In this document: positions 43,721 through 49,627 of the stretch, piece by piece
How positions within the stretch are numbered: position 1 is the stretch's first letter
Layout: every line of letters begins with the position of its first letter
Assembly: GCF_019355395.1 (NCBI RefSeq)
Contig: NZ_CP048829.1
Span: 3,203,001 to 3,267,000, forward strand
Direction of reading: 5' to 3'
DNA length: 64,000 nt
DNA from: Chordicoccus furentiruminis
GTDB taxonomy: Bacteria > Bacillota > Clostridia > Lachnospirales > Lachnospiraceae
Program-made: the position numbers and the translations under genes
The notes under the pieces: generated by a model
Databases searched by the model: none
Seen by the model: the letters and a program-made list of their open reading frames with translations, nothing else
Told to the model about the DNA's origin: nothing

Positions 43721-43906
43721 ATGTCCATTTGTCCGAAGAACAAACATTGCTCTGCACGGCGCGACAAGACGAGAGCTCATTGGAAGATGAGCCATCCGAC
43801 ACTGGTCAAGTGCCCGAAATGCGGCGCATTGATGATGCCGCACAGAGTCTGCAAAGCCTGCGGAACTTACAATAAACGCGAAATCGTGAAACAGGCTGAA
43901 GACTGA
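43721..43906 (+). CDS. rpmF: 50S ribosomal protein L32
   Basis: A 61-residue basic protein of the large subunit. SICPKNKHCSARRDKTRAHWKM is the L32 N-terminus. KCPKCGALMMPHRVCKACGTY gives the C4 zinc ribbon, so this is the zinc-binding version. AAGGAGG lies 10 nt before ATG 43721; an in-frame GTG at 43715 is not needed. The yceD/DUF177 gene that usually precedes rpmF in Firmicutes is absent. It has its own promoter and terminator. Confidence 0.97.
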   Translation: MSICPKNKHCSARRDKTRAHWKMSHPTLVKCPKCGALMMPHRVCKACGTYNKREIVKQAED

Positions 43907-44093: not shown

Positions 44094-45134
44094 ATGGATA
44101 TCATCAGAGTCGCGGTCGACGCGATGGGCGGCGATCACGCCCCGGAAGCTCCGGTCAGAGGAGCCATAGAGGCCGTTACGGAAAACGAGCAGCTCCGGAT
44201 CATCCTTCTCGGCGACGAGCCGGCGATCCGTTCCATCATCGGAACGTTGCATTACCCGGAAGACAGGGTGACGGTCCAGCACTGCACGGAGCGGATCGAG
44301 ATGGCCGAGCCGCCGGTGGCTGCCATCCAGAAGAAAAAGGATTCTTCCATTGTCCGGGGCATGATGATGCTTCGGCGCGGAGAGGCGGACGCGTTTGTCT
44401 CGGCCGGATCCACCGGCGCCGTGCTGGTAGGGGGGCAGGTGCTGGTCGGCCGGATCCGGGGTGTGGAGCGGCCGCCGTTGGGCGCACTGATGCCGACTGA
44501 AAAAGGCATGTCTCTTCTGATCGACTGCGGCGCCAACGTGGACGCCCGGCCGGCCTGGCTTCTTCAGTTTGCGGAGATGGGATCCATCTATGTGGAGCAC
44601 GCCCTCGGCATTCCCCATCCGACCGTCGGCATCCTCAACATCGGCGCGGAAGAGGAGAAGGGAAACGCCCTCGTGAAGGAAACGATTCCGCTTCTGAAGG
44701 AATGCGGAAGTATCAATTTCATCGGGTCGGTGGAAGCGAGAGACATTCCCGCCGGCGCGGCGGACGTCATCGTGACGGATGCGTTCAGCGGAAACATCGT
44801 CATGAAGATGTACGAAGGCACCGCGACGACGATCTACCGGATTGCGAAGAACGGACTCAAAAAATCGGTTCCCGGCATGCTCGGCGGACTTCTGGCCAAG
44901 GGCACGCTGAAAAAGGCGCTGAAGGATTTCGATGCGTCGAAATATGGCGGAGCGCCGCTTCTCGGTCTGAAAGGACTGGTCGTCAAGGCGCACGGAAGCT
45001 CCCAGGATACCGAATTCCGGATCGCCGTGAATCAGTGCGGGATTTTCTACAGGGAGAACATCAACGGTCTGATCAAAGAACGGATGGAGGCAGAGAGCGC
45101 GAAGATCCGCGCGCTGAAGCAGAATGGAAACTGA
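44094..45134 (+). CDS. plsX: Phosphate acyltransferase
   Basis: PlsX converts acyl-ACP to acyl-phosphate for phospholipid synthesis with PlsY. The 346-residue protein starts IIRVAVDAMGGDHAPEAPVRGA. It has VSAGSTGAVLVGGQ, GCNV-like DCGANVDARP, and TDAFSGNIVMKMYEG. AAAGGAG lies 8 nt before ATG 44094. It begins the plsX-acp-rnc-smc-ftsY unit, overlapping acp by 11 bp. Since its substrate is acyl-ACP, its neighbour's lack of the attachment serine is notable. Confidence 0.95.
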   Translation: MDIIRVAVDAMGGDHAPEAPVRGAIEAVTENEQLRIILLGDEPAIRSIIGTLHYPEDRVTVQHCTERIEMAEPPVAAIQKKKDSSIVRGMMMLRRGEADAFVSAGSTGAVLVGGQVLVGRIRGVERPPLGALMPTEKGMSLLIDCGANVDARPAWLLQFAEMGSIYVEHALGIPHPTVGILNIGAEEEKGNALVKETIPLLKECGSINFIGSVEARDIPAGAADVIVTDAFSGNIVMKMYEGTATTIYRIAKNGLKKSVPGMLGGLLAKGTLKKALKDFDASKYGGAPLLGLKGLVVKAHGSSQDTEFRIAVNQCGIFYRENINGLIKERMEAESAKIRALKQNGN

Positions 45135-45345
45135 GATCGTCATCGGAATCGCCGCCGGAGTTCTCGGCGTGGAAGCGGAATCGCTCCGCAGCTCGACGGA
45201 TCTGGTCCGCGACCTCGGCGCGGACAATCTTGACCTTTTCGCGATCGCGGTAGCAGTCGAGGAGAAGATCCGTCGGCCGCTGGACAGGGAAAAGCTGCAC
45301 ACAGCGCGGACAATCGGAGAGATCGCCGCGCTGATGACGGCATAA
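45124..45345 (+). CDS. Acyl carrier protein-like protein lacking the phosphopantetheine serine
   Basis: A 73-residue ACP fold in the normal acpP position between plsX and rnc. Motif 2 reads DLGADNLDLF, where functional ACPs read DLGADSLD. Residue 35 is asparagine, encoded by AAT at 45226-45228; a single base change from AGT would restore serine. No other serine lies nearby, so holo-ACP synthase should not be able to attach 4'-phosphopantetheine. Helices I, III and IV keep an ACP-like pattern, but helix II is altered (FAIAVAVEEKI for the usual VELVMALEEEF), with fewer acidic residues. The frame is intact and tightly coupled to plsX. It is either a non-carrier regulator or a decaying duplicate; the working ACP must be elsewhere. 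Confidence 0.85.
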   Translation: METEIVIGIAAGVLGVEAESLRSSTDLVRDLGADNLDLFAIAVAVEEKIRRPLDREKLHTARTIGEIAALMTA

Positions 45346-45361
45346 GACAGCAGGACACGAG

Positions 45362-46048
45362 ATGAAAAATTTACATGAGCTGGAGAAGGCCTGCGGCTAT
45401 GTATTCCGCGACCCGTCTCTTCTGACGATGGCGGTGACCCATACTTCCTATGCGAATGAGCACCGCCGGAACAAAACGGAACACAATGAACGGCTCGAAT
45501 ATCTCGGCGATGCGATTCTGGATCTCGTCGCCGCCGAGTATCTCTACCGGAAATATCCGGAAAAGCAGGAAGGCGAACTGAGCAAGATGAGGGCCAGTAT
45601 GGTCAGCGAACAGCCGCTGGCGAAGTGCGCCCGCGACATCGGACTGCCTTCCTATCTTTTTCTCGGCAAAGGCGAGGAGATGATGGGCGGACGGGAGAAG
45701 GATTCCATTATCTCGGATGCCACGGAGGCCGTGATCGGAGCGATCTATCTCGACGGCGGTTTTGACGAGGCCAGACGCTTCGTGATGAAGCATGTTCTGC
45801 TTGATCTGGACAAGGAGGATCTCTTTACTGATGTGCGGACGCCGCTGCAGGAAATCTTTCAGGACAGGCAGAAGCAGGTGCTTTACCATGTGACAGGCGA
45901 AAGCGGACCGGACCACGACAAACGCTTCGAGGTCACAGCCTATGTGGACGGTCAGAAAATCGGGAGCGGATGGGGCAGAACGAAGAAGGCCGCAGCCCAG
46001 AGCGCCGCGCAGGACGCCATGAACCGGATCGGACGGAAGAACGGGTAA
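45362..46048 (+). CDS. rnc: Ribonuclease III
   Basis: RNase III cleaves double-stranded RNA in rRNA processing and mRNA turnover. The 228-residue protein has the catalytic motif HNERLEYLGDAILDLVAAEYL and the second acidic site DATEAVIGAIYLDGG. A C-terminal double-stranded RNA-binding domain begins near DVRTPLQEIFQDR and contains GSGWGRTKKAAAQSAAQDA. It is 16 bp after the ACP-like gene and followed by smc after 18 bp, the conserved order. Confidence 0.97.
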   Translation: MKNLHELEKACGYVFRDPSLLTMAVTHTSYANEHRRNKTEHNERLEYLGDAILDLVAAEYLYRKYPEKQEGELSKMRASMVSEQPLAKCARDIGLPSYLFLGKGEEMMGGREKDSIISDATEAVIGAIYLDGGFDEARRFVMKHVLLDLDKEDLFTDVRTPLQEIFQDRQKQVLYHVTGESGPDHDKRFEVTAYVDGQKIGSGWGRTKKAAAQSAAQDAMNRIGRKNG

Positions 46049-46066: not shown

Positions 46067-49000
46067 ATGTATTTGAAATCAATCGAGGTACAGGGCTTCA
46101 AATCCTTCGCCAACAAGCTGAAGTTCGAGTTCCAGAAGGGCATCACCGGCATCGTGGGGCCGAACGGTTCGGGCAAATCCAATGTCGCCGACGCGGTGCG
46201 CTGGGTGCTGGGCGAGCAGAGCGCGAAGCAGCTGCGCAGCGGCAGCATGCAGGACGTGATCTTCGCCGGTACCGAGACCCGGAAGCCCCAGAGCTTCGCT
46301 TCCGTTGCGATCACCTTCGACAATGCGGATCACCGTCTTGATGTGGATTATGAGGAGGTCACGGTGACGCGGCGTCTCTACCGCTCCGGAGAGAGCGAGT
46401 ACCTGATCAACAACGCGCCGGTCCGACTCCGGGATATCAACGAAATTTTCTATGACACAGGCATCGGGCAGGAAGGCTATTCGATCATCGGCCAGGGTCA
46501 GATCGACCGGATCCTCTCCGGCAAGCCGGAGGAACGGCGCGAGCTCTTCGACGAGGCGGCCGGCATCGTCAAATTCAAGAAGCGGAAGGCGGCTTCGCTG
46601 AAGAAGCTTGAGGACGAGCATCAGAACCTCGTGCGGGTCAATGACATCCTGAAGGAACTGACTGACCGGCTTGAGCCGCTGAAGAAGCAGTCCGAGACGG
46701 CGCGGATCTATCTTGATCAGAAGGAGAAGCTGAAATCGCTGGACATCAATCTGTTTCTGATCGAGGAGGAGCGAACGGACCAGCAGTTGGCGGAGATCTC
46801 AAAGCGTCTCGATATTGTCGGAGACGATATGGCCGAGACGAAGGACCGCTTCGATCAGACGAAGAGCGAGTATGAACGCGTCGATCATGAACTGGAGGAT
46901 CTCGACGGCCGGATCGCCTCTCTTACGGAAAAAGCGGCAAAAAACGCGCTGCTCCGCGAACAGCTGACCGGCCAGATCGCGCTGCTCCGCGAACAGATCC
47001 GGACCGTGGAGGCTCAGAGAGCGCAGAATGAAGAAAGACTGAACCGCCTGGAGGAGGATATTCGTTCGCATGAGGAAGAAATCCGCCGGCGGACGGATGA
47101 GATGGAGGCGCAGAAGGCGGGCGACGGAGAGGTGAAGGCCCGCGAGCGGGAAGCTGTCAGCCGTCTTGAAGAGACGGACAGGGCGATCGCGGAGATCACG
47201 GACCGGATCGAGCAGGCCCGCCGGAACATGATCGGGATGCTGGAGGACCGGGCGCAGGTTAAAGGCAAGGTGCAGCGCTACGACACGATGCTGGAGCAGA
47301 TGGGGATACGCCAGTCCGAGATCGGCGGGCGGCTGCTCCGTCTGAAGGAGGAACAGCAGCGAGCCGGTGAGGAAGCCGGACGGAATGACGGCGAGATTGC
47401 GTCCATCCGTCAGAAAATCGAAGCGTGCGGGCGGGAGGAAAACGAGGCGGCCGGAAAAACCGGTGAGCTGACCGCCCGCATGACGGAAACCAGCTCACGC
47501 CTGGACGAGACCCAGACCGGCTATCACCGTGACAGCTCGCGTCTCGAGTCTCTCCGGTCGATGGCCGAGCGCTACGACGGGTACGGAAACGGCATCCGCC
47601 GCATCATGGAACAGAAAAAGCAGAACCCCGGCATCCGGGGCGTCGTGGCGGATCTGATCCGCGTGCCGAAAAATTATGAGACCGCCATCGAGACTGCGCT
47701 GGGCGGAAGCATCCGGAACATCGTCACCGACAACGAGGCAACCGCAAAGCATCTGATCGAGTATCTGAAGGCGAATAAACTCGGGCGCGCCACCTTTCTT
47801 CCACTGACAAGCATCCGTCCGCGTTCTCTGAACAATGAGGAAGCTCTTCGGGAAAAGGGCGTGATCGGAGTCGCATCCTCTCTTGTCGAAACGGATGAGG
47901 AGTACCGCAGCCTGGCAGGCTTTCTGCTTGGACGGATCGTGGTGGTGGACACCATTGACAATGCGATCCGGATCGGCCGAGCCTACCGTCACAGCCTTTT
48001 CATGGTGACGCTTGCCGGTGAGTCCTTCGCCCCGGGAGGTTCGATCACCGGCGGCGCGTTCAAAAGCAATGACAATCTTCTCGGCCGGAAGCGGGAGATT
48101 GCGGAGCTGACCGAGCGGACAGCCCGGCTCAAGAAAGAGACGGAGACGCTTCGCGTAAAGCTGGACGCTCTGAGAAACGAACGGAACGCGTCGAGGGATA
48201 AGCAGGCAGCCGTCCAGGAGTCGAGGCAGAAGCTTCTGCTGCGTCTCAATACGCTTGAGATGACGAAGAAACAGGCGGAGGAACAGATGACGGTGAGCCG
48301 GCTGCAAAGCGGCTCGCTGGAGAAGGAGCACGCCGAACTGGAACGGCAGATCCGGGAGGTCCGTGAGAAAAACGCCGCGATTGCCCGGACGATCGCCGAT
48401 TCGGAGCACGAGGAGTCGAAAGTCAACGAGCAGGCAGATGAGCTGAGGCAGAGAGAAGACGAGCTGAAAGCAAGGCGGGCGGAGGAGGCGAAGAATCTGG
48501 AGTCGATCCGGGTCGAAGCCGCTTCCTGGGCTGAGCAGAAGGCGTTCCGCGCCGAGACGATGAAGCGGCTTTCCGATGAGCTGGGACGGCTGCGAAATGA
48601 AAAGACTTCTCTTGAGGCTTCGTTTGCCTCGGCCGGTGAGGAGAAGAACGGAAAGGCGGAGCAGATCGCCGAAGTGGAGGCGGCCATTCGCCGCGGAGAG
48701 GAAGAGGCGGCCGGAACCGAAGAGGAGAAGCGAAAGCTGGCCGCCCGGAGAAAAGAGCTGCAGGACAGCCACCGCGAATTCTTCAACCGGCGGGACGAGC
48801 TGTCGGACCGGATGGGACGGCTTGACCGGGAGCATTACCGCCTGACGTCCCAGCGGGAGAAAATCGAAGGCGGAAAAGAAGAACGTGCTTCCTATATGTG
48901 GGAGGAATACAGCCTGACGCCAAGCGAGATCCGCGGCATTGCGCTGACGGAAAGAAGTGAGGACCGCGCGGCTGTCAGGAAGGAGATCACCGGCATCCGA

Positions 49001-49627
49001 AACCTGATCCGGGGGCTCGGAAACGTCAATGTCAACGCCATCGACGAGTACAAGGAGCTGCTCGAGCGGCATACCTTCCTTTCCTCGCAGCATGAGGACC
49101 TTGTGAAGTCGGAGGAGACGCTGAAAGGCATCATCACAGAGCTGGATCAGGGGATGAGAAAGCAGTTCACCGAGAAATTTGCCGAGATCCGGACGGAATT
49201 CGACAAGGCGTTCCAGGAGCTTTTCGGCGGCGGTCACGGAACAATCGAGATCGATCCGGACGCGGATATTCTTGAGGCGGGCATTTCCATCATCGCCCAT
49301 CCGCCGGGCAAGAAGCTTCAGAACATGATGCAGCTTTCCGGCGGCGAGAAGGCGCTGACAGCGATCGCGCTGCTGTTTGCAATTCAGAACCTGAAGCCGT
49401 CTCCGTTCTGTCTTCTTGACGAGATCGAGGCCGCGCTCGATGAAGGCAATGTGGTCCGGTTTGCCGGCTACCTGCACAATTTGACAAAGAATACGCAGTT
49501 TATTATCATAACGCACAGACGCGGCACCATGATGGCCGCGGACAGACTGTACGGCATCACGATGCAGGAGAAGGGCGTCTCCACGCTGGTGTCCGTCAAT
49601 TTGATCGAGGATAAGCTGTCCTCCTGA
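46067..49627 (+). CDS. smc: Chromosome segregation protein SMC
   Basis: SMC is the ATPase core of bacterial condensin and organises the chromosome with ScpA and ScpB. The 1186-residue protein has the N-terminal Walker A GPNGSGKSNVADAVRWVLGE. A long coiled coil follows, then the hinge (about residues 525-650, with GGSIRNIVTDNEATAKHL and a glycine-rich GGSITGGAF). After the second coiled coil comes the C-terminal head with signature LSGGEKALTAIALLFA and Walker B CLLDEIEAALDEGNV. AAGGAG-type spacing precedes ATG 46067. Large open frames on the opposite strand are shadows caused by its codon bias. Confidence 0.98.
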   Translation: MYLKSIEVQGFKSFANKLKFEFQKGITGIVGPNGSGKSNVADAVRWVLGEQSAKQLRSGSMQDVIFAGTETRKPQSFASVAITFDNADHRLDVDYEEVTVTRRLYRSGESEYLINNAPVRLRDINEIFYDTGIGQEGYSIIGQGQIDRILSGKPEERRELFDEAAGIVKFKKRKAASLKKLEDEHQNLVRVNDILKELTDRLEPLKKQSETARIYLDQKEKLKSLDINLFLIEEERTDQQLAEISKRLDIVGDDMAETKDRFDQTKSEYERVDHELEDLDGRIASLTEKAAKNALLREQLTGQIALLREQIRTVEAQRAQNEERLNRLEEDIRSHEEEIRRRTDEMEAQKAGDGEVKAREREAVSRLEETDRAIAEITDRIEQARRNMIGMLEDRAQVKGKVQRYDTMLEQMGIRQSEIGGRLLRLKEEQQRAGEEAGRNDGEIASIRQKIEACGREENEAAGKTGELTARMTETSSRLDETQTGYHRDSSRLESLRSMAERYDGYGNGIRRIMEQKKQNPGIRGVVADLIRVPKNYETAIETALGGSIRNIVTDNEATAKHLIEYLKANKLGRATFLPLTSIRPRSLNNEEALREKGVIGVASSLVETDEEYRSLAGFLLGRIVVVDTIDNAIRIGRAYRHSLFMVTLAGESFAPGGSITGGAFKSNDNLLGRKREIAELTERTARLKKETETLRVKLDALRNERNASRDKQAAVQESRQKLLLRLNTLEMTKKQAEEQMTVSRLQSGSLEKEHAELERQIREVREKNAAIARTIADSEHEESKVNEQADELRQREDELKARRAEEAKNLESIRVEAASWAEQKAFRAETMKRLSDELGRLRNEKTSLEASFASAGEEKNGKAEQIAEVEAAIRRGEEEAAGTEEEKRKLAARRKELQDSHREFFNRRDELSDRMGRLDREHYRLTSQREKIEGGKEERASYMWEEYSLTPSEIRGIALTERSEDRAAVRKEITGIRNLIRGLGNVNVNAIDEYKELLERHTFLSSQHEDLVKSEETLKGIITELDQGMRKQFTEKFAEIRTEFDKAFQELFGGGHGTIEIDPDADILEAGISIIAHPPGKKLQNMMQLSGGEKALTAIALLFAIQNLKPSPFCLLDEIEAALDEGNVVRFAGYLHNLTKNTQFIIITHRRGTMMAADRLYGITMQEKGVSTLVSVNLIEDKLSS

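Follow-up and report, generated by a model that had tools for sequence, protein, structure and literature searches.

Is an acyl carrier protein (ACP) that has lost its phosphopantetheine serine a redundant gene being discarded, a protein with a task that needs no cargo, or an error of sequencing? The question is raised by an ORF between plsX and rnc in Chordicoccus furentiruminis, analysed in a window of 64,000 nucleotides (contig NZ_CP048829.1, positions 3,203,001 to 3,267,000). The 73 amino acid product of this ORF is referred to as the Asn35 ACP and the genome encoding it as its own genome; G and L numbers are codes for genomes of the genus and for loci, respectively.

The ORF and its place in the ACP family

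The genes surrounding the ORF (Table 1) are taken to be plsX, rnc, smc and an rpmF-like gene. The last 11 bases of plsX overlap the start of the Asn35 ACP ORF, which ends 16 bases before the start of rnc, and smc follows rnc. The protein sequence begins METEIVIGIAAGVLGVEAESLRSSTDLVRDLGADNLDLFAIAV and aligns column by column with ACPs that have serine at position 35; its motif reads LGADNLDLF as compared to LGADSLDL in ACPs, and no serine was found near the start of helix II in the 73 residues. The GC content at the three codon positions (0.69/0.42/0.73) resembles that of plsX (0.62/0.42/0.76) and rnc (0.62/0.37/0.70), as expected for a real coding frame.

Table 1. Positions in the window of the Asn35 ACP and its neighbouring genes.
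Feature	Position	Strand	Basis
Asn35 ACP, plsX/rnc-linked, without phosphopantetheine serine, 73 aa	45124..45345	+	profile match, predicted structure
Codon 35 of Asn35 ACP, AAT (Asn) where Ser is conserved	45226..45228	+	sequence, alignment
plsX (presumed)	44094..45134	+	name from earlier note
rnc (RNase III; presumed)	45362..46048	+	name from earlier note
smc (presumed)	46067..49627	+	presumed name
rpmF-like small ORF, 5' of plsX (presumed)	43721..43906	+	presumed name

The Asn35 ACP passes the Pfam PP-binding profile PF00550 with 33.8 bits (cut-off 20.8), a match it has in common with canonical AcpP of type II fatty acid synthesis. Its score of 26.9 bits is below the curated cut-off of 70.45 for NCBIfam TIGR00517, and all other NCBIfam ACP models among the matches listed are also below their own cut-offs. 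An AlphaFold2 model, built from 55 aligned rnc-linked ACPs, predicts a four-helix ACP fold (pLDDT 91.5) with helices at residues 2-14, 35-49, 55-60 and 64-72, so that helix II begins at residue 35. The top Foldseek matches of this model are ACP chains (best E 4.5e-5, TM-score up to 0.91), and the predicted fold appears to be shared with AcpP, as the TM-score to E. coli ACP structures is ~0.9. The profile match, the predicted fold and the AAT codon bear out the earlier note, made from the sequence alone, which described an ACP with asparagine in place of the serine; its remark that the ORF is not obviously a pseudogene also stands, as the frame, predicted fold and codon signal are all intact. 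Unlike canonical AcpP, the Asn35 ACP is weakly acidic, scores below the NCBIfam ACP cut-offs and lacks the serine which, in a type II ACP, opens helix II and takes up 4'-phosphopantetheine. Post-translational phosphopantetheinylation of the protein is therefore not predicted.

Helix II of the Asn35 ACP is NLDLFAIAVAVEEKI. The note had also stated that this helix is less acidic than normal, which holds for the whole protein (net charge at pH 7 of -5.4, with the canonical ACPs of its own genome at -14.3 and -16.4) but less clearly for the helix, where D37, E46 and E47 are retained. It took the loss of acidity as a sign that selection for AcpS and acyltransferase binding had been lost. Serine-bearing sisters are also weakly charged; G017 at -2.3 (without the first four residues) and G028 at -1.3 (for the full length of a longer frame). 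Low acidity is thus not a consequence of serine loss.

Distribution and history of the serine

The genus sample comprised 42 genomes, with an rnc match in 38 and readable upstream sequence in 37; the counts leave out four genomes without an rnc match and G003, where rnc lies at a contig edge and a plsX-linked ACP with its serine present is found on a different contig. An ACP precedes rnc in 24 of the 37 loci, and has serine in 21, asparagine in one (its own genome) and alanine in two, G033 (GANAMDL) and G015 (EVHALDL), both with intact frames. The serine is therefore missing from 3/24 rnc-linked ACPs, and from 3/12 of those with plsX directly upstream. Conservation of Asn35 in relatives, which the earlier note had proposed as a check, was not found, as the sister genome G017 has serine and two other genomes alanine. 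The remaining 13 loci have no rnc-linked ACP; 12 of these have plsX as the direct neighbour of rnc, with 25-255 bases between the PlsX match and rnc, and G039 has rpmF in that place. Serine change or gene loss was seen at 15/24 loci with plsX directly upstream vs 1/13 without (Fisher p 0.0016, a value that ignores kinship). As a control, other small ACP-like ORFs, chosen among the matches listed and read by eye, have the serine in 40/40 cases from 33 genomes of the genus.

Several further observations were made on these loci. No plsX match at E 1e-5 was found in 15 of the 42 genomes, some of them incomplete, with G030, G013 and G035 (97% complete) as examples. Of the 13 loci that lack plsX directly upstream, 12 still have an ACP with an intact serine beside rnc, and at L081:2327-3672 the gene order is rpmF, ACP, rnc. 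Diverged plsX matches (41-43% identity) lie away from rnc at G020:C73:22480-23268 and G034:C139:7598-8143, the latter with a stop; both genomes have an rnc-linked ACP with no plsX in the upstream stretch examined. L189 (G032:C122) contains an ACP-like ORF with the motif LSSYAL where ADSLDL is expected.

Outside the genus sample, the 80 nearest named rnc loci were examined, which come from Lachnospiraceae, other Clostridia, Firmicutes and one 'uncultured bacterium'. An ACP is present in 78, L076 (no ACP) and L086 (incomplete) being left out, and all 78 have the serine. The nearest of these loci is from the MAG RUG11216, which shares an identical ACP with G028. Six of the named-locus ACPs are identical to ACPs of the genus sample, and the other 72 (70 distinct, which may include genus members) all keep the serine. 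In a further 29 homologue loci from across the family, 18 with both plsX and rnc, the serine is present in all 29. The Asn35 ACP and the rnc-linked ACPs of Lachnospiraceae (e.g. Butyrivibrio, Faecalicatena and Eisenbergiella) are orthologous by position, as they share their place by plsX/rnc and are similar in length; they differ in that the latter keep serine in all of these named loci.

A genus tree was made from Rnc, the SMC N-terminus and PlsX with a quick method and eight outgroup loci. It places the own genome as sister to serine-bearing G017 (SH-aLRT 93) and alanine-bearing G033 as sister to serine-bearing G028 (SH-aLRT 100), and the four form one group (SH-aLRT 91). As each has a serine-bearing sister, the serine losses of the own genome and G033 are separate, and the direction is taken to be loss because all eight outgroup loci have the gene with serine. 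Parsimony gives at least three serine changes and at least nine presence/absence changes, or at least 11 with the three states together.

Selection on the gene was examined with a branch codon model in which branch lengths were fixed from plsX and rnc. Omega on the own branch was 0.106 compared with 0.086 in the background, which is not a significant increase (LRT 0.70), and omega of 1 was rejected (LRT 92), with silent sites saturated at ~7 neutral changes per codon. Most of the time on this branch, and hence of the averaged constraint, may precede the serine loss. Omega is significantly raised on the G033 branch (0.173, LRT 8.35), which is thus under weaker constraint. A model that frees the serine codon alone was better than one that lets the whole gene turn neutral in the last part of the branch, with a lead of 5.4, 5.0 and 3.1 lnL for three branch scalings; the optimum of the serine-codon model was at the longest tail tried, and that of the whole-gene model at 0.3-0.5 neutral changes per codon. 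These models leave out stops, insertions and tandem changes (TC to AA), and the strength of constraint at the serine column was chosen manually, with G033 masked there. They provide modest evidence that selection continued to act on the remaining residues after serine loss. Faster evolution of the Asn35 ACP was rejected, as its 14 listed pairs do not stand out from the spread of the reference pairs (z -1.6 to 0.9; 12 of the 14 negative). The change of the aspartate before the serine to asparagine (G028, G033 and G011) was likewise discarded as a mark of decay, since many other serine-bearing ACPs of the genus read NSF.

Other carrier proteins and known systems

The own genome is one contig of 3,267,205 bases (98% complete) and contains six PP-binding sites, five of them above cut-off, and one AcpS-family match. 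The search for a second ACP with DSL, suggested by the note, yielded two. One, with the motif QADSLDVV, is in a fatty-acid cluster and adjoins ORFs which from reading their translations are accB, accC, accDA-like and ketoacyl-synthase-III-like; the other is a solo ACP with the motif GADSLDLY. Their presence agrees with the idea of an inactivated paralogue, and removes the argument that the lack of any other ACP gene would point to a sequencing error. It also implies that the Asn35 ACP is auxiliary, and with two DSL ACPs and one AcpS match the genome would need no carrier function from it. The six sites are completed by the Asn35 ACP and three DltC-like carriers, recognised by reading. A dlt-like set at L157:2132-7721 (own genome C1 ~1,861,131-1,866,720; names from reading translations) comprises AMP-ligase-like, PLP-decarboxylase/racemase-like, small carrier (DSFG), MBOAT-like and further membrane-anchored ORFs, among which the amino-acid enzyme looks unusual for a dlt operon.

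The closest known system is AcpB of Enterococcus faecalis, described in PMC6509188 as a plsX-linked, auxiliary and non-essential ACP, which receives acyl groups from acyl-phosphates via PlsX, keeps its serine and carries phosphopantetheine; homologues are reported there from Lactobacillales. The Asn35 ACP is likewise a second ACP adjoining plsX in a genome whose fatty-acid cluster encodes a further one, it has a divergent helix II, and FakA-like and DegV family matches are present in its genome. By position it would be the counterpart of AcpB, but it differs in having no serine, and transfer of an acyl group from acyl-phosphate via PlsX is predicted to be impossible without it. In E. coli, ACP S36T is reported to be unmodified and non-functional (PMC3340395), and inactive ACP domains made by mutation are described inside a large synthase (PMC5067506). 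The titles and abstract openings of the literature matches listed mention no free-standing ACP that lacks the serine.

Loss of the exogenous fatty-acid route was rejected as a cause as far as presence of its genes goes, since FakA-like (PF21645) and DegV (PF02645) matches are above cut-offs in all 42 genomes. The FakA-like match is, however, much weaker in G001, G003, G014 and G015 (67-69 bits vs 95-117 elsewhere), and those of 67 bits are at G014:C37:1801-2031 and G015:C18:133347-133577. Of these two genomes, G015 has a serine-less rnc-linked ACP and G014 has none.

Competing readings of the serine-less ACP

We consider, with a probability of roughly 0.68, that the Asn35 ACP is a redundant auxiliary plsX-linked ACP, unable to carry acyl chains, which this lineage repeatedly discards. 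The serine modified by AcpS would have been lost on the species' own branch, after which no holo-ACP could form and no acyl group be carried; that the protein cannot be modified would follow from the known chemistry of AcpS together with the E. coli S36T variant. Lipid synthesis would depend on the two serine-bearing ACPs encoded at other loci. The rnc-linked ACP appears dispensable in the genus and is repeatedly discarded, in most cases as a complete gene and in three cases through loss of the active serine. It is from the 13/37 absences, the three serine losses and the existence of other ACPs that we infer redundancy as the cause and a vestigial status for the protein. A statistical association with the solo ACP was not supported; the rnc-linked ACP is lost in 12/21 genomes with a solo ACP (including three weaker solo-like matches; G009, G014 and G015) vs 4/16 without (p 0.093), nor is it seen in independent pairs. 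The intact frame, predicted fold, codon signal and remaining constraint, the last of these modest evidence, count against retirement.

These same features are what would be expected of an ACP which has kept a job in its apo form, as a cargo-free binding partner that, for example, occupies the ACP site of PlsX or of a different ACP-binding protein and tunes phospholipid synthesis. We regard this as possible but doubtful, and the earlier note's suggestion of PlsX, SMC or RNase III as partners as speculative. The frame overlaps plsX, the four-helix model is confident, the codon models prefer a freed serine codon with the other residues still constrained by 3-5 lnL, the asparagine codon is at least two changes from TCN, and G033 and G015 are also serine-less with intact frames. 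There is a precedent in E. coli MukB, whose ATPase is stimulated equally by apo- and holo-AcpP according to PMC8602292. Against such a role, the replacing residue varies (Asn, Ala, Ala), the sister genome keeps serine, the gene is often absent, the constraint is an average across a long branch and could predate the loss, and the G033 branch is less constrained. That the ORF is a translational spacer, which merely couples plsX to rnc while its protein is irrelevant, would fit the plsX overlap and the short gap before rnc; it is improbable, as 12 loci of the genus have plsX directly before rnc with no ACP between them and the codon models indicate protein-level constraint. A sequencing or assembly error concealing Ser35 is very unlikely. 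Only one assembly of the species is available, which leaves room for such an error, and the earlier note had expected AGT as the true codon. However, the serine codon is TCN in all 21 serine-bearing rnc-linked orthologues of the genus (97/99 overall), so AAT is at least two changes away and does not fit a one-base error; a mistake would need two adjacent bases to be miscalled in a nearly complete single-contig genome, and serine is also missing on separate branches in two other genomes. With this distance from TCN, the change must have passed through an intermediate codon or have altered two bases at once.

Retirement of a redundant auxiliary ACP is the simplest account, and an ACP kept for its surface the bolder one. 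The bolder account can be extended, as an unlikely and tentative proposal, to the plsX-linked ACP of this genus becoming a binding-only pseudo-ACP more than once independently, perhaps as a regulator of PlsX; if true, it would relate to ACPs as pseudokinases do to kinases. The serine is held to be indispensable in carrier proteins, yet it has been lost three separate times in one genus, and these losses, amid many losses of the gene, are natural replicates with which to ask whether a carrier can be kept for its surface alone. The case is also a caution that fold and position can lead to an 'acyl carrier protein' annotation which is functionally wrong, and the pattern suggests that many of these bacteria do not need the plsX-linked ACP.
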